Source of the DNA: a virus
IMG/VR virus record: IMGVR_UViG_3300030380_001149
Span: 1 to 58,965 of that record
Reading direction: 5' to 3' (one strand)
Length of the DNA stretch: 58,965 bases
Below, piece after piece: positions 10,694-58,282 of the stretch. The notes under the pieces were generated by a model. It did not search any database, had not been told where the DNA came from, and worked only from the letters and a program-made list of their open reading frames with translations. The translations under genes were made by a program, and so were the position numbers. The stretch's first letter is position 1; each line of letters begins with the position of its first letter.

Positions 10694-12874
10694 ATGCTTA
10701 GTGAAATCCAGATTGTTGGAGGTATAAACAAACAAGTAACACCTACAGGTGCACAAGGTAAATGGGTTGATTGCGATAATGTAAGATTTCGTTATGGTTT
10801 TCCAGAAAAAATAGGTGGATGGGAGCAAACAACTTCAAGCACTTTAGTTGGTGTTGCTAGAGACATGCACATTTGGAGTGACCTTACTGGCAAAAGATAT
10901 ATAGCTTTAGGCACAAATAAAGGTTTGTTTATTTATCATGATGGTTTAATGTATGATGTATCTCCGTTAGACACTAATATAACATCTTGCACATTAACAA
11001 CCACAAATAATTCAGCTACTGTAACTGTCAACAAAACAGCTCATGGACTAGAGGTAGGGGATTTATTTTTATTTTCTAGTGTTACATTACCAGGTGGAGG
11101 CACTGGTTTTGTTGGTGCAGATTTTACACAAAATACCTTTGAAGTAATAACAAGAACTTCTGATACTTTTACTGTAACAGCAGGTAAAGTAGAATCAGGT
11201 GCTGGATTCACTGCTGGTGGTAGTGTAACTTTATCTCCCTATTTTAAAGTTGGAGATGCTGTTCAAGTTATTGGTTATGGTTTTGGAACAGGTTTATATG
11301 GAGGCACTAATCCTTCTATCACAAGCACAACTTTAAATGGTGCTTTACTCGATGATACAAACGGAACAGGTGGCTCTGGAACAACCATTACATTAACATC
11401 AGTATCAGGTTTTAGTGGTACTGGTGGCACACTAAAAGTGGGAGAAGAGTTAATTACCTACACTGGAGTAGTAGGTAGCACAGTTACTGGAATAGTTAGA
11501 GGAGCTTCTGGCTCTACTCGTTCTGCACATAGTGATGGAGCAGTTGTAGAAGAAGCATCTAGTTTTACAGGTTGGGGTAGTGCATCACCTACTGGAGAAG
11601 TAACATTAGAACCAGCTAATTGGTCATTAGATAATTTTGGAGAAATATTAGTTGCTACAGTAAGAAATAATAAAACATTTCAATGGAATCCAAGTAGCAG
11701 TTCTGCGTTATCTACAAGAGCTACAGTTATATCTAATGCACCTATACAAAGTGTTATGACAGTTATATCAGATAGAGATAGACATTTAATTCACTTAGGA
11801 ACAGAAACCACTGTTGGCACATCTAGTCAAGATAAGATGTTTATAAGGTTTTCAGACCAAGAAAATTTCTCAGATTATACACCAACTTCTACAAACACAA
11901 GTGGTACATTTAGATTAGATAGTGGTACAAAAATAGTAGGAGCAGTTAATGCTGGTAGTTACATATTAATATTGACTGATACCTCCGCTTATATCATGCA
12001 GTTTGTAGGACCTCCTTTTACTTTTAGTATAAGACAAGTTGGAGCTAATTGTGGTTTAATATCTCAACATGGATTGGTTGCGGTAAATGGAGTTGTGTAT
12101 TGGATGGGTCAAGCAGGAGGTTTTTATTTATATGATGGCACTGTAAAAAAAATAACATGTTCTGTTGAGGATTTTGTTTTTACTACTCAAGACACAGATG
12201 ACTTAGGTTTAAACTTTGATGCTTCTGATGTAGTGTATGCTGGATATAATTCTTTATTTAGTGAAATTAATTGGTTTTATCCAAAAGCTACATCAACACA
12301 AATTGATAGAGTAGTAAGCTATAACTATGTAGAAGGTTTGTGGACTATAGGCACATTACCAAGAACTACCTATTACGATAAAACAATTTTTGACAATCCT
12401 TATGCTACTGATTATAGTGCATCTGCCACACCAAACTTTCCTATTATACAAGGAGTAACTAATACGAATGGTGCTACTACTTTGTACGCACATGAAAAAG
12501 GTAATAATCAAGTTTTAGCAGATGGTACACAATCAGCGATTATAGGAAGTATTCAAAGCGGAGACTTTGAAGTAAGAGGTCAACAAAATAATATGAATGT
12601 TACTGGTGAGTTTTTTATGAAGATTAGTCGTTTCATACCAGACTTTAGAGCTTTAGTAGGGAATGCAAAAGTCACAATTAATTTAAAAGATTTTCCAAGT
12701 GATACTGAGGCTAGTAGTAGTTTAGGACCTTTTACTGTAAGTAATTCAACACAAAAGGTAGATACCAGAGCTAGGGCAAGAGCTTTAAATTTAAAAATCG
12801 AAAATGAAACAGTTAATGAAAACTGGAGGTACGGAACATTTAAAGCTGATGTTCAAGCGGATGGTAGAAGATAA
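10694..12874 (+). CDS. Large tail protein, P22 gp10-like packaged-DNA stabilisation/tail tube
   Basis: A 726-residue protein opening LSEIQIVGGINKQVTPTGAQGKW, VDCDNVRFRYGFPEKIGGWEQ, then RYIALGTNKGLFIYHDG. This is the beginning seen in phage stabilisation proteins of the P22 gp10 type, where beta-propeller-like repeats form the tail tube or knob below the adaptor. Residues 330-560 carry propeller-like strands (RDRHLIHLGTET, GSYILILTDTSAYIMQF, GVVYWMGQAGGFYLYDG). Residues about 90-290 are Thr/Gly-rich inserted repeats. Starts 5 bases after the previous stop without a clear Shine-Dalgarno. Confidence 0.7.
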   Translation: MLSEIQIVGGINKQVTPTGAQGKWVDCDNVRFRYGFPEKIGGWEQTTSSTLVGVARDMHIWSDLTGKRYIALGTNKGLFIYHDGLMYDVSPLDTNITSCTLTTTNNSATVTVNKTAHGLEVGDLFLFSSVTLPGGGTGFVGADFTQNTFEVITRTSDTFTVTAGKVESGAGFTAGGSVTLSPYFKVGDAVQVIGYGFGTGLYGGTNPSITSTTLNGALLDDTNGTGGSGTTITLTSVSGFSGTGGTLKVGEELITYTGVVGSTVTGIVRGASGSTRSAHSDGAVVEEASSFTGWGSASPTGEVTLEPANWSLDNFGEILVATVRNNKTFQWNPSSSSALSTRATVISNAPIQSVMTVISDRDRHLIHLGTETTVGTSSQDKMFIRFSDQENFSDYTPTSTNTSGTFRLDSGTKIVGAVNAGSYILILTDTSAYIMQFVGPPFTFSIRQVGANCGLISQHGLVAVNGVVYWMGQAGGFYLYDGTVKKITCSVEDFVFTTQDTDDLGLNFDASDVVYAGYNSLFSEINWFYPKATSTQIDRVVSYNYVEGLWTIGTLPRTTYYDKTIFDNPYATDYSASATPNFPIIQGVTNTNGATTLYAHEKGNNQVLADGTQSAIIGSIQSGDFEVRGQQNNMNVTGEFFMKISRFIPDFRALVGNAKVTINLKDFPSDTEASSSLGPFTVSNSTQKVDTRARARALNLKIENETVNENWRYGTFKADVQADGRR

Positions 12875-14767: not shown

Positions 14768-14797
14768 TTGACATTATGTGATAAGATTTGATATAAT
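14768..14797 (+). promoter_or_regulatory. Sigma70-like promoter of the 14820 gene
   Basis: TTGACA at 14768-14773, 18-base spacer containing ATGTGATA, TATAAT at 14792-14797. The leader to the start codon is only about 15-20 bases and carries AACAAAGGA. The same layout recurs at 45382, 30038, 41126 and 58229. Confidence 0.8.
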
Positions 14798-14819
14798 AAG
14801 TTATAACAAAGGAAAAAAA

Positions 14820-15623
14820 ATGACAAACAATTATTATTACATTACAACTGGACAATTTCAAAGAGTTGAACTTTACGATATAGCTAATGCCAAATCGCAT
14901 TACTATTCAACTGGTGGCAATAAAATGTATGTTTTGAGACATTCATTTGAAGATTATAATGGTACAGTTAAAGATTGGTATGTTAAGACTTTATCTAAAA
15001 ATATAGATGTTGCAATCAAGAAAGCTAAAGAATGGGTCAAAGAAAATGGTGAAAAAAATCACGATTTAATAATTAATAGCGATTATCAAGAAGTAGACCC
15101 TAATGACACAATTCCTCAATGGGTTAAAGATATTAAAAAAAGCAATCAAATAGAAAAGGATAAAGCAAAAGAACGAGTAAAGAAATGGGAAGCTGAGAAA
15201 AAACAAAGAGAATTAGAGAAAGAGAAAAAACATAAAAAGATTTTATCAGAATTATCTAAATCTGAGTATGTGGGTCAACCTAAAGATAGATTGGAAAAAA
15301 AACTTACTGTTACATATTTTAAGTGTAAAGAAGTAGACCCTTATTGTTATGGAGCTCCTTCTTATGTGAACATTATCACATTGGTAGACGAAGAAAAAAA
15401 TATTTATTCTTATATTGGTACATCTGACTTAGGTTGTGATGAGGAGCTTGTTGGTAAAACTTTTAATATAAAATTTACAGTAAAAAAGCATTCTTTATAT
15501 ACTCCTAAATTTGCTAGACTTTTTGACGAACATTATGAAGATGAGTACACGATAAATGATTACGGAGTAGATTTTAAAGGTGCAAAGCAAACTATAATAC
15601 AAAGACCTAAAGTAATAAATTAG
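14820..15623 (+). CDS. Promoter-proximal early-type hypothetical protein
   Basis: A 267-residue protein. I place the start at ATG 14820, behind AAAGGA, not at an upstream in-frame ATG that would overlap the promoter. The N-terminal 100 residues are aromatic-rich (NNYYYITTGQFQRVELYD), then a charged coiled coil at about 105-155 (KAKERVKKWEAEKKQRELEK). A C-terminal domain (SEYVGQPKDRLEKKLTVT, GKTFNIKFTVKKHS, QTIIQRPKV) resembles a small OB-like domain seen in other phage early proteins. It has its own promoter and a terminator overlapping its stop, like a moron inserted in the structural region. Function unknown. Confidence 0.7.
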   Translation: MTNNYYYITTGQFQRVELYDIANAKSHYYSTGGNKMYVLRHSFEDYNGTVKDWYVKTLSKNIDVAIKKAKEWVKENGEKNHDLIINSDYQEVDPNDTIPQWVKDIKKSNQIEKDKAKERVKKWEAEKKQRELEKEKKHKKILSELSKSEYVGQPKDRLEKKLTVTYFKCKEVDPYCYGAPSYVNIITLVDEEKNIYSYIGTSDLGCDEELVGKTFNIKFTVKKHSLYTPKFARLFDEHYEDEYTINDYGVDFKGAKQTIIQRPKVIN

Positions 15624-38219: not shown

Positions 38220-38374
38220 AATGTTACAACTGTGAAACAAAATTAATATGGGGTGGAGACCATGATTGCGAAGATGATGAGGAACATGAGATAGTGACAA
38301 ATTTATCTTGTCCAAGTTGTGGTGCTTTTCATTTAGTGTATTGGGGTAAAAAAGAAGATGACAAGAAAGAATAA
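38216..38374 (+). CDS. 52-residue zinc-ribbon protein
   Basis: ATG overlaps the helicase stop (ATGA). Two Cys-x2-Cys knuckles, CYNC near the start and CPSC near residues 32-35, plus acidic linkers, make a zinc ribbon likely. Such micro-proteins may modulate host transcription or bind nucleic acid. Function unknown. Confidence 0.6.
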   Translation: MKCYNCETKLIWGGDHDCEDDEEHEIVTNLSCPSCGAFHLVYWGKKEDDKKE

Positions 38375-38537
38375 AAAGTATGCAGTGTATGCAAAAAAAA
38401 TTATTTATTACAAAAGACAAGCAATGGGAAGAAGTGAAGAAGAAGTAAAAAGTAAAATGGAAAGATTAAAAACAAAAGATACTTATGATATAATAGATAC
38501 AGAGTTTTTTATAAGTGAAATTTTACAGGAGGAGTAA
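38358..38537 (+). CDS. 59-residue hypothetical protein
   Basis: Starts in the last codons of the zinc-ribbon gene. The product has a Lys/Tyr-rich helix (KKIIYYKRQAMGRSEEEV) and an acidic end. It terminates just before the ATG of the next micro-gene, within a chain of overlapping small genes. Confidence 0.5.
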   Translation: MTRKNKKYAVYAKKIIYYKRQAMGRSEEEVKSKMERLKTKDTYDIIDTEFFISEILQEE

Positions 38538-38606
38538 ATGACATATATAATAGCTTACACGATTATTAGTACCATAATTGGTTTACATAATGCAGGAGTA
38601 ATATAA
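38538..38606 (+). CDS. 22-residue hydrophobic peptide
   Basis: ATG at 38538 follows CAGGAGGAG (strong Shine-Dalgarno) and the stop overlaps the next start (TAATG). The product is a single hydrophobic segment (IIAYTIISTIIGL). The tight coupling on both sides argues for translation, though a translational linker is an alternative. Confidence 0.4.
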   Translation: MTYIIAYTIISTIIGLHNAGVI

Positions 38607-38969: not shown

Positions 38970-39255
38970 AGATGACAACAAATTAGTTTTTTTATTTGAT
39001 AATAAAAAAAATGAAGAGAATAAAAAAGAATTAGATGAGATGCTTATTGTTAGAAAAGCAATAATTAAAGCTATGAAGAACATAGAGTTAGAAGTATCAC
39101 CACATAACATAATAAAAGTTTTAGGGTTTTATCTTTGTGAGATAACTTTTAAACATTGTCCAGACCCTTTTGTAGCTACTAATTTATTATTACAAATAGT
39201 GGTAAACAAAACAGAAGCAGAGTCTTTGAAAATAATAAAGAGAAAACATGAGTAG
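38962..39255 (+). CDS. Hypothetical protein upstream of DNA polymerase
   Basis: A 97-residue, mostly helical protein (ELDEMLIVRKAIIKAMKNI, IIKVLGFYLCEITFKHCPDP). It overlaps DUF3310 and the polymerase gene by 8 bases each, so it is translated with them. Could be a polymerase accessory factor by position only. Confidence 0.55.
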   Translation: MNKDDNKLVFLFDNKKNEENKKELDEMLIVRKAIIKAMKNIELEVSPHNIIKVLGFYLCEITFKHCPDPFVATNLLLQIVVNKTEAESLKIIKRKHE

Positions 39256-41119
39256 CGGTTTACAATTAGTTTTTCCATTACAACAAACCAACATGTGGTC
39301 ACCACCTACAGAGTATGTGGATTTATCAGATTGTGATGAGGTAGCAATAGATTTAGAAACAAGAGATGAGGGTATTAACAATGGGTTAGGAGCTGGTTGG
39401 GCATTAGGTAAAGGTGAGATTATTGGTTTTGCAGTGACCTCGAAACATGGTAGCTTCTACTATCCGTTTGGGCATTTAGGTGGTGGTAATCTTATCAAGG
39501 AACAAGTCCTACGATACATGAAAGATGTTTGTGCTTTACCTTGTCGTAAAATCTTTCACAACGCATCTTATGATGTTGGATGGTTACAATCGTATGGAAT
39601 AAAAGTAGAAGGTGAGATTGTAGATACAATGGTTGCTGGTTGTTTAATCGATGAAAATAGATACTCTTATTCTTTAAACGCATTAGCAAAAGAATATCTT
39701 GGTGAGATAAAAGCGGAACAAGGATTACGAGAGTCTGCTCAACTGTATGGTGTTGACCCAAAGAATGAAATGTGGAAACTACCCTCTGAGCATGTTGGAC
39801 ATTATGCTGAACAAGATAGCAAACTTACTTATAACTTATGGCAACGATTTAAACATGAAATAGTAAAACAAAACTTAACAACTATCTGGGAACTGGAACG
39901 AGACTTATTGCCACACTTAATTGAAATGAGAAGTCGAGGTATACGAGTAGATACAGATGGTGCAGAAAAATTAAAAATAGATTTTAAACAAAGAGAAAAA
40001 ACTACATTACAAAATATAAAAAAGTTAGTTGGTAAAGATGTAGATATATGGGCAGCAAGAAGTATCGCTACAGCTTACGATACATTAGGTATTGAATATC
40101 CTAAAACAGTAAAGACCAAAGAACCAAGTTTCACACAACAATGGTTAAACGATGATGCTAACGATATTTCTAAATTAATTGTACAAGCAAGAGAGCTTAA
40201 TAAATTTCATAATACTTTCATTAATAGTATTTTAAAATACACACACAAGGGTCGAATACATGCAGAGATAAACCAACTACGAGGAAACAATGGTGGCACA
40301 GTAAGTGGTCGATTATCTATGAGCAATCCAAACTTACAACAACTACCAGCTCGTAATAAAGACTTCGGTAATTTAATACGAGGATTGTTTTTACCAGAAG
40401 AAGGTGAGAAGTGGGTCGCCTTAGACTACTCGCAACAAGAACCAAGGGTCGCTGTTCATTATAGTTTAGCTTTAGACTTCGATGGTGCAAAAGAAATAGC
40501 TAAAGCATATGAAAGCGGTGATGGAGACTTTCATCAATCAGTTGCTGACTTATGTGGTATTGATAGAAAGAGTGCTAAAAGTATTTCATTAGGTTTAATG
40601 TATGGTATGGGCAAAAATAAATTAGCTAACATGCTAGGTTTAACTTTTGATGAAGCAAGTTCTCTGATAGATAAGTATAATCGCAAAGCACCATTTTTAA
40701 AAATGCTATCCGATAAGTGTATGGATAAAGCACAAAACGAAGGAGTGATACGAACTAAGTTAGGAAGAAAATGTCGTTTTGATTTATTCGAACCAAAAGA
40801 TTTTGGAATACATCAAGCAGAAAAATTTGAAAATGCTAGTGCAAAGTATGGTGCTAAAAACATTAAACGAGCTTACACATACAAAAGTCTTAATCGATTG
40901 ATACAAGGAACAAGTGCCGACTCTACAAAGAAAGCAATGTTGAATTGTGCAACCTTGGGTCACTTGCCACTATTACAGGTTCACGATGAATTGTGTTTTA
41001 GTATTAAAGATAAAAAAGATATTGAGATTATAAAAGAAACTATGGAGAACTGTGTAGAGTTTTTAGTACCTATGAAAGTAGATGTAGCAATAGGTGATAA
41101 TTTTGGTGAAACAATATAA
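39248..41119 (+). CDS. polA: DNA polymerase I-type (family A) with 3'-5' exonuclease
   Basis: A 623-residue family A polymerase without a 5' nuclease. Exonuclease motifs: AIDLETRD (Asp35, Glu37), IFHNASYDVGW, and HYAEQDSKLTYN. Polymerase motifs: A WVALDYSQQEPRVAVH, B RKSAKSISLGLMYGMGKN (about 437-455), C LLQVHDELCFS. In motif B the residue equivalent to E. coli Phe762 is Leu. Length and architecture resemble T7 gp5, but no thioredoxin-loop equivalent is obvious by eye. It should replicate the genome with the SSB, AEP primase and SF1 helicase upstream. Confidence 0.95.
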   Translation: MSSGLQLVFPLQQTNMWSPPTEYVDLSDCDEVAIDLETRDEGINNGLGAGWALGKGEIIGFAVTSKHGSFYYPFGHLGGGNLIKEQVLRYMKDVCALPCRKIFHNASYDVGWLQSYGIKVEGEIVDTMVAGCLIDENRYSYSLNALAKEYLGEIKAEQGLRESAQLYGVDPKNEMWKLPSEHVGHYAEQDSKLTYNLWQRFKHEIVKQNLTTIWELERDLLPHLIEMRSRGIRVDTDGAEKLKIDFKQREKTTLQNIKKLVGKDVDIWAARSIATAYDTLGIEYPKTVKTKEPSFTQQWLNDDANDISKLIVQARELNKFHNTFINSILKYTHKGRIHAEINQLRGNNGGTVSGRLSMSNPNLQQLPARNKDFGNLIRGLFLPEEGEKWVALDYSQQEPRVAVHYSLALDFDGAKEIAKAYESGDGDFHQSVADLCGIDRKSAKSISLGLMYGMGKNKLANMLGLTFDEASSLIDKYNRKAPFLKMLSDKCMDKAQNEGVIRTKLGRKCRFDLFEPKDFGIHQAEKFENASAKYGAKNIKRAYTYKSLNRLIQGTSADSTKKAMLNCATLGHLPLLQVHDELCFSIKDKKDIEIIKETMENCVEFLVPMKVDVAIGDNFGETI

Positions 41120-43742: not shown

Positions 43743-44206
43743 TGTATTTACCACAACCAAATGTATTAGCAGTTTTAGGATATTATAATAGTAAACAAGT
43801 CTTGTTCACAGAACGCAATCCAGAAGAACAATTATTTTGTTATGTTGTTTTGAATTGTATTGAAGATGTTCTCGTGCCACATAATGATAGAAAATCCGCA
43901 TTACTAAAATGTGAAGCTCATAATTGGTTAGTTGGTAATAATAGAGATTTTAATTTAGTATGTGATTGGGCATTATTAGAACCAGAACATATTAGTCAAT
44001 CGTACATCAAAGCATTAAAAAAAGGTCTTGTTAAATTTACCACGAGACAAGTAAAGTGGCAGAAGTATTATAACAATTACTTAGAATTAAAATCTATCAA
44101 CATTCGTGAGAAACGGAGAAGAAAAGGTGAACTCAAACGATTACGAGAAGAGGTACATCAATCAACGACCACTTTTACTTCTACTATTTATATGAGTGTT
44201 ATTTAA
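43742..44206 (+). CDS. Hypothetical protein with basic C-terminus
   Basis: A 154-residue protein: globular N-terminal part (EEQLFCYVVLNCIEDVLVPH, SALLKCEAHNWLV) and a basic helical C-terminus (REKRRRKGELKRLREEVH). It closes the replication operon and overlaps the convergent GNAT gene by 8 bases. A nucleic-acid-binding role is possible. Confidence 0.6.
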   Translation: MYLPQPNVLAVLGYYNSKQVLFTERNPEEQLFCYVVLNCIEDVLVPHNDRKSALLKCEAHNWLVGNNRDFNLVCDWALLEPEHISQSYIKALKKGLVKFTTRQVKWQKYYNNYLELKSINIREKRRRKGELKRLREEVHQSTTTFTSTIYMSVI

Positions 44207-44624
44207 AATATTCAAAATTATAACTGGTCTTATTGTTAGATAACAATTTTGCTCCGTTTCTTAAATGAAACTTTTTAGCCATTTCTGTTTTTGGCGACAA
44301 TGTTACAAATCTTTCAGTTTGTAATATTTGTAATAATTCGTTTAATATAGTTCTGCCATATCCTTTTTCGTATGACCACACTGTATAAAATATAGTAAAT
44401 TCTTTTGCATTTTCTTGTGAGTACATTTCTAATTCTTGCATAGTAATTGGCAACTCAAATGTATTAGCAATACACACAACTGCTTTGTCTTGTATTGTAT
44501 AGATATTTCTACCTTGTGTTGTTCTAAATGTATAACTAACATCTCGCACTGGGTCGTCTTTGATTTTTACTTGTGCTTTGTTCGTTACTTTACTTAGTTT
44601 CGATTTTGTCTGGTGTAACATCAA
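44199..44624 (-). CDS. GNAT-like acetyltransferase
   Basis: A 141-residue protein with a GNAT-like course: strand NIYTIQDKAVVCIANTFELP, strand EFTIFYTVWSYEKGYGRTIL (turn before the acetyl-CoA helix), helix LNELLQILQTERFVTL, and MAKKFHLRNGAKLL near the end. The pyrophosphate loop Q/RxxGxG/A appears only as EKGYGR, so activity is plausible but not assured. It overlaps the small terminase gene by 35 bases. Confidence 0.6.
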   Translation of the reverse strand: MMLHQTKSKLSKVTNKAQVKIKDDPVRDVSYTFRTTQGRNIYTIQDKAVVCIANTFELPITMQELEMYSQENAKEFTIFYTVWSYEKGYGRTILNELLQILQTERFVTLSPKTEMAKKFHLRNGAKLLSNNKTSYNFEYFK

Positions 44625-45102
44625 TTATGTTTTTTGCTTCGCCAATTTTAGACTCTAATTCCTCTAGTCTTTTTTCTAATTGGTCTCTACTCATTCCTTC
44701 CAAAGTTGAATGGGTTATCTGTTTGTGGTCTACATATAATCCTGCTAATTGACCAGAACGATATTCCGCATTAATTGATGCAGTAAATTGTCCTTTAGCA
44801 GAAGATTGGTCTCGTAAATCATCTAGTATTTTGTATCTTCTTAATTTATCTTTCTCATACTTTTCTTTTTCTTCTAACAACTTCTTTTCCATGTATCGGC
44901 AAACATGAGGGTTTGTATCTGGGTTCGTTAACTTCGATGCAAGGACAAAGGCACTTTCTCTTGTCTTAGGAGTGTAACCAGCTTCTAACAATGCATCGGT
45001 CTTTGTTATCTTACCCCACTTCATAACAAGTATATCAATGAACCTTTTTTGTTTGTCTGTAAGGTCTTTAGTTGTACGAACCAATTTACTTCTTTGAGGC
45101 AT
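44590..45102 (-). CDS. Small terminase subunit
   Basis: A 170-residue protein; ATG 45102, or GTG one codon upstream. The N-terminal helix-turn-helix region LTDKQKRFIDILVMKWGKIT, ALLEAGYTP, RESAFVLASKLTNP is the pattern of Terminase_2 / small-terminase DNA-binding domains; a long coiled coil (KKLLEEKEKYEKDKLRRYKI) and a C-terminal helix follow. It should recognise the packaging site and recruit the large subunit at 47407. Unusually it is on the opposite strand, 2.3 kb away, next to the dyad element at 45121. Confidence 0.82.
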   Translation of the reverse strand: MPQRSKLVRTTKDLTDKQKRFIDILVMKWGKITKTDALLEAGYTPKTRESAFVLASKLTNPDTNPHVCRYMEKKLLEEKEKYEKDKLRRYKILDDLRDQSSAKGQFTASINAEYRSGQLAGLYVDHKQITHSTLEGMSRDQLEKRLEELESKIGEAKNIIDVTPDKIETK

Positions 45103-45120
45103 CACGAATCACTTTCTATT

Positions 45121-45380
45121 TCTAAAAATACTATATAGCACTTCCTTAGAAAATAAAAATAAAAAAAAAATTTGCACGAAAAACAATCCTAGAAACAGTA
45201 TTTTTCCCAAAATCTAGGAATTTTTCCCAAAATTTTCCCAAAACTTTTTCTCTGTAATGGTATATTTTCTGGGTTTTTTTCCATTTTCCCAGAAATATGG
45301 TCTCCTTAGAACTTTTTTTTATTTTTTTTTTTCTAAGCAACGACTATATAGGGAAATTGGGAATCTAGGAAATCTAATTG
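45121..45380. other. Dyad/iteron intergenic element, candidate origin or packaging site
   Basis: The 45103-45435 gap has no convincing gene. Outer arms, 45131-45168 and 45314-45351, form an imperfect inverted repeat of about 38 bases (CTATATAG..TT.CTTAGAAAA.AAAAAT with A/T tracts). Between them are three TTTTCCCAAAA copies (45202, 45222, 45233), a fourth TTTTCCCA at 45284, CTAGGAA-type blocks, and a hairpin TTCTGGG (45267-45273) / CCCAGAA (45288-45294). A GGGAA..CTAGGAA copy follows at 45351-45372. It separates leftward terS from rightward genes. Confidence 0.7.
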
Positions 45381-45381
45381 T

Positions 45382-45409
45382 TTGACTATGTGATACGATT
45401 TGATATACT
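45382..45409 (+). promoter_or_regulatory. Early-type promoter of the 45436 gene
   Basis: TTGACT (45382-45387), 16-base spacer beginning ATGTGATA, TATACT (45404-45409), then TATTATATAACAAAGGAG. Shares TATGTGATA-GATTTGATATA with the 14768 promoter. Confidence 0.75.
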
Positions 45410-45435
45410 TATTATATAACAAAGGAGAAAAGAAA

Positions 45436-46032
45436 ATGACAAAATTTAAATTCGAAAAAATAGATACAACTTTCAAAAGTAAAAATTATACTGGAGATGA
45501 ATTTGTTGATAAAGGAGCAATGGTTTATGAATATGAATTTCTTAAAGACCATATTGAAAAAGGTAAAATATATCTTACTGAGCAAGAAAAAGAAATATGG
45601 TCATATATAAAAGATATAGTAGTTGACCTTAAAGTTAGAAGGTTAAAAGATAGTCATATTGCTGGTAAGTTCAAGGATTATGTATGGAAAACCATAGAGC
45701 ATAGAAAGTCACCTACTAACTATGGTTATGCTAATGAAGGTGGTTATACTGATGTTTACCCATATGAAATAGTTAAAGTAGTTAGCGAACAAACTATAGA
45801 GGTAAGAAGATTAGATGCAGAAAAAGATAGTTCAGTAGAACTTAAATGGGTATCTGGTGGTTTTGCTGGACATTGTGTAAATCAAAATGAACAGAAATGG
45901 ATTTATAAGTCTAATGAAAATAATCCTTCTCAAAGAATTAGAAGAAGAAAAGATGGTTATTTTTATTCAGGTCATAATACTAGATTTTATCTTGAGTTTG
46001 CACCAAGAAAATTTCACGACTACAACTTTTAA
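45436..46032 (+). CDS. Early-type hypothetical protein
   Basis: A 198-residue protein; start at ATG 45436 behind AAAGGAG, not the upstream in-frame ATG that lies in the promoter. The middle domain (YPYEIVKVVSEQTIEVRRLD) and SGGFAGHCVNQNEQKWIYKS resembles a conserved phage early protein of unknown function; the C-terminus RKDGYFYSGHNTRFYLEFAP is typical of it. First gene of a small-gene cassette next to the putative origin. Confidence 0.65.
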   Translation: MTKFKFEKIDTTFKSKNYTGDEFVDKGAMVYEYEFLKDHIEKGKIYLTEQEKEIWSYIKDIVVDLKVRRLKDSHIAGKFKDYVWKTIEHRKSPTNYGYANEGGYTDVYPYEIVKVVSEQTIEVRRLDAEKDSSVELKWVSGGFAGHCVNQNEQKWIYKSNENNPSQRIRRRKDGYFYSGHNTRFYLEFAPRKFHDYNF

Positions 46033-46774: not shown

Positions 46775-47185
46775 ATGGAAAAGAATTTATGGTATCAACT
46801 TAACTTACTTCAAAAACAAGATAAGGCATGGCATATGACAAGGATAGAAAGCTCTACAATAAACGGAATACCAGATGTTCATGCATGTGTGAATGGCAGT
46901 TCATTCTGGTTAGAGTTAAAGTCAAATGAAGATAAGAATTTTGGTTTATCTAAATATCAAATCATTTGGCAAATAGATTACATCAATGCAGGTGGTTTAG
47001 TTTACAACTTAGTTTTCGCACCCTCGCAGAGGCTGCTCAAACTTATGAGAATTTTGCCCTCGATGTTCACTTTTTGTTCTGGAAAAGAGGACAAGGTCGA
47101 GAGGTTCGAGGTGCTTGACACAGTAAAATACAACAGCGAAAACTTATACAAAATAATTAAGTCGATTCCGATTCGAAACAGCTAG
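46775..47185 (+). CDS. VRR-NUC-type nuclease
   Basis: A 136-residue PD-(D/E)XK protein: helix WYQLNLLQKQDKAWHMTRIE, then NGIPDVHACV (Asp34) and SSFWLELKS (Glu47, Lys49), then QIIWQIDYINAGG. This is the VRR-NUC pattern of small phage nucleases that cut branched or flap DNA. Located just before the large terminase, it could trim packaging intermediates or resolve recombination joints. Shigella-Dalgarno-like TTAGGAAG precedes the ATG. Confidence 0.82.
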   Translation: MEKNLWYQLNLLQKQDKAWHMTRIESSTINGIPDVHACVNGSSFWLELKSNEDKNFGLSKYQIIWQIDYINAGGLVYNLVFAPSQRLLKLMRILPSMFTFCSGKEDKVERFEVLDTVKYNSENLYKIIKSIPIRNS

Positions 47186-47406: not shown

Positions 47407-48882
47407 ATGAGTGAAACAGAACATCTAACTACTGATAGATTAAGATTACAAGTTGAAAAATTACATATTGAACATATAAAACTTTGCCAAGATAATTTTT
47501 TATATTTTGTTCAAGAGATGTGGCAAGATTTTATTTGCAGAAAAGAAAAAGAAAAAAGCAAATGGGGTCATCATCAAATCATAGCAAATGAATTTACAAA
47601 AATAGCTTCTGAAAGAAAAGGAAGGCTCATAATAAATATGCCACCTAGACATACTAAATCAGAATTTGCATCTGTGTATTTTCCAGCATGGATAATAGGG
47701 AAGTTTCCAAAATTAAAAATTATGCAAGTATCACATAATACAGAACTTGCTGTACGATTTGGAAGTAAGGTTCGAAACATAATTGATTCTTCTGAGTACA
47801 AACAAATTTTTGGAGATGTAAAACTTCGTGAGGACTCCAAAGCAAAAGGAAGATGGGAAACTAATCAAGGTGGAGAATATTATGCTGCTGGTGTTGGAGC
47901 ATCGATAACAGGTCGTGGTGCGGATTTATTAATTATTGATGACCCACATACGGAACAAGATTCTATGTCCGACTTAGCTATGGAACGAGCATATGATTGG
48001 TATACATCAGGACCTAGACAGAGATTACAACCAGGTGGTTCAATTTTATTAGTTATGACACGATGGGCAGAGGATGATTTGACTGGTAGATTATTGAAGG
48101 CTCAAAAAGAACCCAAAGCTGATTCATGGCAAACAATTTCTTTTCCAGCTATCTTACCAGATGGTAAACCAGTGTGGTCAGAATATTGGGAACTATCTGA
48201 ATTAGAAAAAATAAAAGCATCTTTACCAGTTCGTAATTGGTCAGCTCAATACATGCAAGAACCAACATCCGAGGAAGGTGCGATTATAAAAAGAGAATGG
48301 TGGCAACCTTGGAAGGAAGAACACATACCTAATTTAATTCATGTCATACAAAGTTATGATACTGCGTTTAGTAAAAAAGAAACTGCGGACTATTCAGCGA
48401 TTACAACTTGGGGAGTTTTTTATCCAGACGAAGTAACACCGAATATAATTTTGTTAGATGCGATACGAGGTAAATATGATTTTCCAGAATTAAAAGTTGT
48501 CGCTATGGATGCGTATAAATATTGGGAGGCAGAAAGTGTAATTATAGAACAGAAAGCAAGTGGTGAACCTTTAACACAAGAATTTAGAAGAATGGGTATA
48601 CCAGTGATACCTTTTGTACCAAGTAAGGGTAACGATAAGTTTGCGAGAGTAAATGCAGTAGCACCATTATTTGAAAGTGGTGCAGTGTGGTTTCCTTACG
48701 GAGAAAGTTTTGCAGATGCAGTGATAGAAGAATGTGCAAGTTTTCCTCATGGTGCGAATGACGACTTTGTAGATAGCATGACACAAGCAATGCTTCGGTA
48801 TAGACAAGGCAACTTTGTTGAACTATACTCGGACTATGTAGACAATGAGGATTTACCTCCAAAGGAGTATAGTTACTACTAA
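47407..48882 (+). CDS. Large terminase subunit
   Basis: A 491-residue terminase. ATPase: Walker A-like IINMPPRHTKSE (75-86), Walker B DLLIIDDPH (173-181), and LLVMTRWAEDDLTGRL. Nuclease: SYDTAFSKKE, IIEQKASGEPL and GANDDFVDSMTQAM supply the metal-binding acidic residues of the RNaseH-like domain. Translocates DNA into the prohead and cuts it. Gene order continues with portal, scaffold and capsid. Assembly as a circularly permuted contig is compatible with headful packaging, but the mechanism is not proven. Confidence 0.95.
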   Translation: MSETEHLTTDRLRLQVEKLHIEHIKLCQDNFLYFVQEMWQDFICRKEKEKSKWGHHQIIANEFTKIASERKGRLIINMPPRHTKSEFASVYFPAWIIGKFPKLKIMQVSHNTELAVRFGSKVRNIIDSSEYKQIFGDVKLREDSKAKGRWETNQGGEYYAAGVGASITGRGADLLIIDDPHTEQDSMSDLAMERAYDWYTSGPRQRLQPGGSILLVMTRWAEDDLTGRLLKAQKEPKADSWQTISFPAILPDGKPVWSEYWELSELEKIKASLPVRNWSAQYMQEPTSEEGAIIKREWWQPWKEEHIPNLIHVIQSYDTAFSKKETADYSAITTWGVFYPDEVTPNIILLDAIRGKYDFPELKVVAMDAYKYWEAESVIIEQKASGEPLTQEFRRMGIPVIPFVPSKGNDKFARVNAVAPLFESGAVWFPYGESFADAVIEECASFPHGANDDFVDSMTQAMLRYRQGNFVELYSDYVDNEDLPPKEYSYY

Positions 48883-58032: not shown

Positions 58033-58058
58033 ATTTAACTCCTTTGTTGTTATATAGT

Positions 58059-58086
58059 ATTATAGCATACTGACCATCAAAGTCAA
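58059..58086 (-). promoter_or_regulatory. Leftward promoter of the cassette between capsid and next head gene
   Basis: On the minus strand TTGACT (58081-58086), 16-base spacer, TATAAT (58059-58064), then ACTATATAACAACAAAGGAG. The 18-bp repeat shared with 30084 begins at its -35. Confidence 0.8.
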
Positions 58087-58103
58087 AAAGCCTAGTTTTC
58101 TGC
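58086..58103. repeat. 18-bp repeat, copy B
   Basis: AAAAGCCTAGTTTTCTGC, exact reverse complement of 30084-30101. A shorter relative, GGTTTTCTGC, lies at 58203-58212. The palindrome CGAATCGATTCG is at about 58154-58165. Confidence 0.8.
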
Positions 58104-58228
58104 ATATTTAAAAACTAAAAAAAAGTAAAAAGATGTGATATTTGATACCTAAACCGAATCGATTCGTATTTTTTTTAATTTAACAAAATTGTGAAAATGT
58201 AGGTTTTCTGCACCTTATATAGGTATAT

Positions 58229-58257
58229 TTGCAAATCACATTATATTACATTATGAT
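58229..58257 (+). promoter_or_regulatory. Rightward promoter with ATCACAT element
   Basis: TTGCAA (58229-58234), 17-base spacer beginning ATCACATT, TATGAT (58252-58257), then AATATTATAAACAAAGGA. Closely resembles the 30038 promoter over more than 60 bases. The 58033-58282 gap otherwise has no gene. Confidence 0.7.
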
Positions 58258-58282
58258 AATATTATAAACAAAGGATAAACAT

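Follow-up and report, generated by a model that had tools for sequence, protein, structure and literature searches.

Genes and features of the terS gap

The stretch analysed here, hereafter the window, is a virus record of 58,965 nt; the overlap of its two ends spans 129 nt and includes a single mismatch. The closest matches of its small and large terminase genes, terS and terL, are those of the SAR11 phages HTVC023P and HTVC027P and their relatives, which marks the window, as judged from this kinship, as an HTVC023P-type pelagiphage; nucleotide BLAST against cultured phages returned no match. SAR11 is the commonest bacterium of the ocean. As a preliminary description had noted, terS is directly abutted by a gap, 333 nt in length (45103–45435), and within it lies a large dyad enclosing an array of short repeats, or iterons, which we refer to together as the element (Table 1). 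The gap had been described as the only one above 300 bases. Under an ORF cut-off of 60 aa two further stretches exceed 300 nt, 1521–1839 and 38220–38605; since the former contains ORFs of 42 and 52 aa and the latter reads as two short ORFs, the terS gap is effectively the largest non-coding one.

Table 1. Coordinates of genes and sequence features around the element in the window
Feature	Position	Strand	Remark
polA	39248–41119	+	
terS, small terminase subunit, predicted SF6/SPP1-type DNA-binding domain	44590–45102	-	ATG at 45102
Outer dyad arm 1, terS side: CTATATAG..CTTAGAAA, then A-rich tract	45131–45172	.	Most relatives have an equivalent arm
Segment whose 10.4-bp phased A-tract signal is the strongest in the window	45151–45330	.	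Predicted intrinsic curvature
Iteron TTTTCCCAAAA (terS-sense TTTTGGGAAAA)	45202–45212	-	GGAA core conserved in alignment
CTAGGAA, half site resembling an iteron, oppositely oriented within core array	45214–45220	+	terS-sense TTCC conserved
Iteron TTTTCCCAAAA	45222–45232	-	20 bp from first
Iteron TTTTCCCAAAA	45233–45243	-	Further 11 bp on
Spacer containing TCTCTGTAATGGTAT	45246–45271	.	Conserved in many relatives, not all
Second iteron cluster: degenerate TTTTCCA and TTTTCCCAGAA	45277–45294	-	51 bp from first cluster, spacing conserved
Outer dyad arm 2: arm 1 inverted, with T-rich tract	45310–45351	.	
Sigma70-like promoter TTGACT-16-TATACT	45382–45409	+	Just outside arm 2, directed away from terS
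Short protein, VRR-NUC-like nuclease motif (by eye)	46775–47185	+	
terL, large terminase subunit	47407–48882	+	

The arms of the dyad extend over 42 nt each and are 81% complementary. The imperfect inverted repeat of 38-nt arms originally proposed is borne out, with seven mismatches rather than five or six. The dyad scores 26, against 11.7±1.6 (maximum 18.5) in dinucleotide shuffles of 45120–45380, none of 300 of which reaches this value. The three copies of TTTTCCCAAAA claimed for the core are present, as is a fourth repeat, TTTTCCCAGAA, at 45284, and TTTTCCCA occurs four times in the element against an expectation of 0.05. Both members of the TTCTGGG/CCCAGAA pair were likewise found (45267–45273 and 45288–45294), and the "several" CTAGGAA blocks come down to two copies, at 45214 and 45365.

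The short protein encoded before terL carries the PHROGs label of a DNA helicase, and its motif GIPDV...WLELKS is typical of VRR-NUC nucleases; short proteins resembling it adjoin terS in HTVC027P and psg01. At the other side, a minus-strand ORF (44199–44624) overlaps the 3' end of terS and appears by eye to be GNAT acetyltransferase-like, with no match in Pfam or PHROG. The promoter beyond arm 2 and its leader (45382–45440, TTGATATA..AACAAAGGAGA) recur with 82% identity at 14768–14824, before another gene. A second sizeable non-coding gap between divergent genes, 58033–58282, is A+T-rich, contains a 29-nt imperfect dyad and is a possible origin or regulatory site.

Conservation and architecture among relatives

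Profile searches place the element in 72 of the 80 terS-anchored IMG/VR loci (two of the 72 truncated or weak) and in the cultured phage HTVC023P, at 11,626–11,839 of MN698239; the profile was built from relatives, and its build set overlaps the searched set. In records outside its build set, the R1 model also revealed the element where it had not been suspected. Absence of the dyad from close relatives had been named as a refuting observation, and the opposite is seen: the element is conserved among them, with 90 distinct versions collected. Each element-bearing genome has a single copy, additional profile matches being either marginal or the dyad read on the opposite strand. An apparent second array in L041 and L044 is an unrelated CCCACTTCCCA repeat (checked in L041).

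An independent scan of 2.9 million viral contigs for the core pattern confines the element to this phage lineage and a single MAG contig, L512, where it adjoins terS and the nuclease gene. Every locus returned has the element amid the same genes, except one MAG match (L513) that is not the element, and no satellites or unrelated phages were found to bear it. The element is absent from HTVC027P, psg01, DSL-LC04 and 15 loci with an HTVC027P-type terS. HTVC027P (L086 5050–5101) and psg01 (L088 8373–8432) have in common another dyad, GATCCCAG-TC...GA-C-GGGATC, situated in the gap between terS and terL and possibly a functional counterpart of the element.

In most genomes the element directly adjoins the terS start, and its orientation follows the terS strand in all 49 TerL-anchored loci and all 95 loci found by pattern, two sets that overlap and have few independent events behind them. 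It lies 1.6–8.7 kb upstream of terL in every TerL-anchored locus that contains it, and it stays put where terS has moved. In the G005-type clade terS is 3–4 kb distant, and the element, abutting a gene homologous to the nuclease-like gene of the window, remains 2.3–3 kb before terL; in L244 terS is found 9.6 kb beyond terL, with the element still 4.3 kb before it. The element is therefore not simply a promoter or leader of terS. The genes flanking it are oriented (+,+) in 49 cases and (-,+) in 27. The divergence of transcription invoked initially is thus true of the window and peculiar to its clade, in which terS and the element are inverted relative to the majority; it does not hold for most relatives.

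The window (45436–46032) and L005–L009 share near-identical terS and element sequences, yet have different genes directly beyond arm 2, joined at the common promoter and leader as at a cassette-swap point. On the opposite border, a small gene, SET-domain-like by eye, is inserted in L029 between the element (955–1179) and terS (1547), and insertions of similar size occupy this place in L058, L059 and L064.

Read in the sense of terS, the element consists of an arm, an A/T tract, an iteron pair and a spacer, followed by three GGAA iterons with one inverted TTCC, a TGCA-like motif, an A/T tract and the inverted arm. Across the 90 distinct versions the iterons mostly occupy positions 0, 8, 51, 62 and 82 bp, with a drift of a base or two and a period of 10.3 bp. 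Much of this constancy is explained by shared ancestry. Gains and losses of iterons, on the other hand, alter the array by about 11 or 20–22 bp (L056, the L028 group, L077 and L070), close to whole helical turns, which argues for selection acting on the spacing. Of 21 genomes compared, about a third have their highest phased A-tract signal in the element, and in 20 of the 21 it reaches at least the 98th percentile; the predicted curvature is weak in a few relatives.

The two arms match each other at 0.74 within a lineage or genome against 0.51 between, in a comparison that ignores kinship and in which the alignment of a few arms was chosen to give the best match. Joint drift of this kind, in a dyad of this size, might be expected of a structured RNA leader or a non-coding RNA transcribed from it. 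RNAalifold, however, predicted no shared pair in an alignment of 34 sequences, no Rfam family matched the element, and arm mismatches compatible with G-U pairing show no strand bias (27 against 31); conserved, covarying pairs on one strand were thus not found, and insertions and deletions follow helical turns. An RNA function consequently seems hardly credible. Because neither a shared pair nor a strand preference of wobble mismatches is seen, the arms resemble a pair of protein-binding sites in inverted orientation, and the element is read as a candidate DNA nucleoprotein site rather than an RNA. Conservation, rigid helical phasing, single copy and the lack of RNA structure together point to a putative cis-acting site. 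The initial proposal of an origin or a terminase recognition site retains its cis-acting part, while its argument from divergent transcription is clade-specific and the adjacency to terS, although strong, is not universal.

Packaging, replication and regulation as candidate functions

The best candidate for the protein that binds the element is TerS. In searches of its profile against the PDB only SF6 small terminase structures match (E 0.008–0.02). The N-terminal part of its AF2 model has a pLDDT of about 87, against 69 for the whole, and the modelled DNA-binding domain aligns with 4zc3 and 2cmp at TM 0.84 and 0.80 on target; Foldseek returned the SF6 DNA-binding domain with E 0.15 and a probability of 1.00. 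In its predicted structure TerS has the DNA-binding fold of the SF6/SPP1 type, the comparison with the SF6/G1P fold covering the DNA-binding domain.

We favour, at about even chances, the reading of the element as the headful packaging-initiation (pac) site of HTVC023P-type pelagiphages, and prefer it to a replication origin, the main though less likely alternative. TerS, as a putative ring with helix-turn-helix domains like those of SF6/SPP1, would bind a segment of predicted intrinsic curvature from one face, through its helically phased GGAA iterons. It would wrap this segment and contact both inverted outer arms, giving a roughly symmetric complex. TerL, recruited by the complex, would make the initial cut in the concatemer within the element or next to it, and headful packaging would follow.

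The pac site of SPP1 and SF6 is found at the start of terS, on bent DNA thought to be wrapped by TerS (PMC4737164, PMC6316719, PMC4856287). In SPP1 it comprises direct repeats and overlaps promoters, the ribosome-binding site and the start of terS (PMC4737164, PMC6316719), and pacL is intrinsically bent (PMC4856287). The pelagiphage element resembles this pacL-pacC-pacR arrangement in its location (adjoining terS in most relatives, the exceptions staying upstream of terL), its direct repeats, its A-tracts with predicted curvature and the TerS fold. It differs in the strict conservation and helical phasing of its iterons, and in lying outside the terS coding sequence, between inverted arms and sometimes kilobases from terS. 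SF6 TerS recognises its own pac with little sequence specificity (PMC4737164), unlike what the strictly conserved iterons would imply, and this counts against the packaging reading, as does the clade in which the element stays while terS is 3–4 kb off. The SF6 DNA-binding domain weakly prefers TTAGGTT (PMC4737164), and many of the element iterons read TTAGGAA, a resemblance that serves as a lead only.

Relative to the element, the ends of near-complete contigs show no preferred position (KS p 0.60); some contigs are closed on themselves, and end overlaps of about 100–135 nt occur in several. A fixed cos end is therefore unlikely and terminal redundancy likely, although direct terminal repeats would give the same picture of uniform ends and circular contigs as headful permutation. 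A tally by eye of contig ends showed no clear spike at the element, strain variation beside it being a confounding factor. Cohesive ends fixed at the element, as at a cos site, would suit the terminase neighbourhood, and lambda cosB (R1-R3) resembles the element in its repeated TerS-binding sequences, putative here, and the bends between them (PMC4856287). The pelagiphage element, in contrast, has more repeats, a flanking dyad and no sign of the fixed unit-length ends of a lambda-type site. Terminal overlaps also allowed 81 related genomes to be circularised (PMC9599517), and with the spread of contig ends this makes a cos site very improbable.

A replication origin fits the anatomy of the element almost as well as a pac site. 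A phage initiator would bind the phased iterons, the A+T-rich arms would open, and the primase, helicase and PolA machinery would load. Phased iterons beside A+T-rich, putatively unwinding DNA at a single site per genome are common to the element and iteron origins such as those of lambda O, SPP1 oriL/oriR and iteron plasmids; the SPP1 origins consist of direct repeats and an A+T-rich unwinding region (PMC6316719), so that such a description fits origins as well as packaging sites. The element is placed, moreover, at the border of the replication genes, polA among them, and the late genes. It departs from iteron origins in its shorter unit (10–11 bp), its packaging-gene neighbourhood and the lack of a known initiator encoded nearby: no initiator or DnaA-like protein was recognised in PHROGs, Pfam and NCBIfam scans of the replication genes searched. 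The usual position against terS and the permanence before terL when terS moves also speak against an origin, GC skew tracks the strand of the genes and does not switch at 45.2 kb, and the other A+T-rich gap with a dyad (58033–58282) could itself be an origin.

Divergence of the element correlates, in a Mantel-type test, with that of TerL, helicase, primase, portal and TerS alike, the partial correlations being 0.26 for helicase, 0.20 for primase and 0.19 for TerS. Phages without the element differ in TerS and in replication proteins, their primase and helicase being about 30% identical, and no mosaic genome with swapped terS or replication modules discriminates between the two functions. Our preference for packaging goes no further than even chances, with the origin as a lesser possibility, because TerL, helicase, primase and TerS are matched to a similar degree by the divergence of the element and the relatives lacking it differ in both modules.

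The element might alternatively be an operator array whose iterons are bound by a phage regulator, TerS or another, that controls the operon of terS together with the strong promoter opposite. It lies 5' of terS, and in many loci a sigma70-like promoter just outside arm 2 is directed away from terS. SPP1 TerS represses its own synthesis, according to a reference title cited in PMC6316719, a role that a pac site might combine with packaging. No conserved promoter within the element is directed towards terS, however, neither in the G005-type clade nor in L244 does the element precede terS, the orientation of the flanking genes varies, and a rigid array of 220 bp is long for an operator. Such an operator array appears quite unlikely.

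Possible implications for packaging in pelagiphages

How small terminases find their own site has been called unclear and controversial (PMC9611059), and the literature searched contained no description of a packaging signal or origin of these phages. The element may represent a new design of packaging site, in which sequence-specific phased iterons and co-evolving inverted arms would define a symmetric TerS complex, the site being capable of inverting or of parting from terS, or else one site for the start of both replication and packaging; we regard such novelty as doubtful. The profile of the element also serves as a marker of this phage lineage. The natural occurrence of a strictly spaced site in 90 distinct versions, and its presence in a phage available in culture, make recognition by TerS directly testable.
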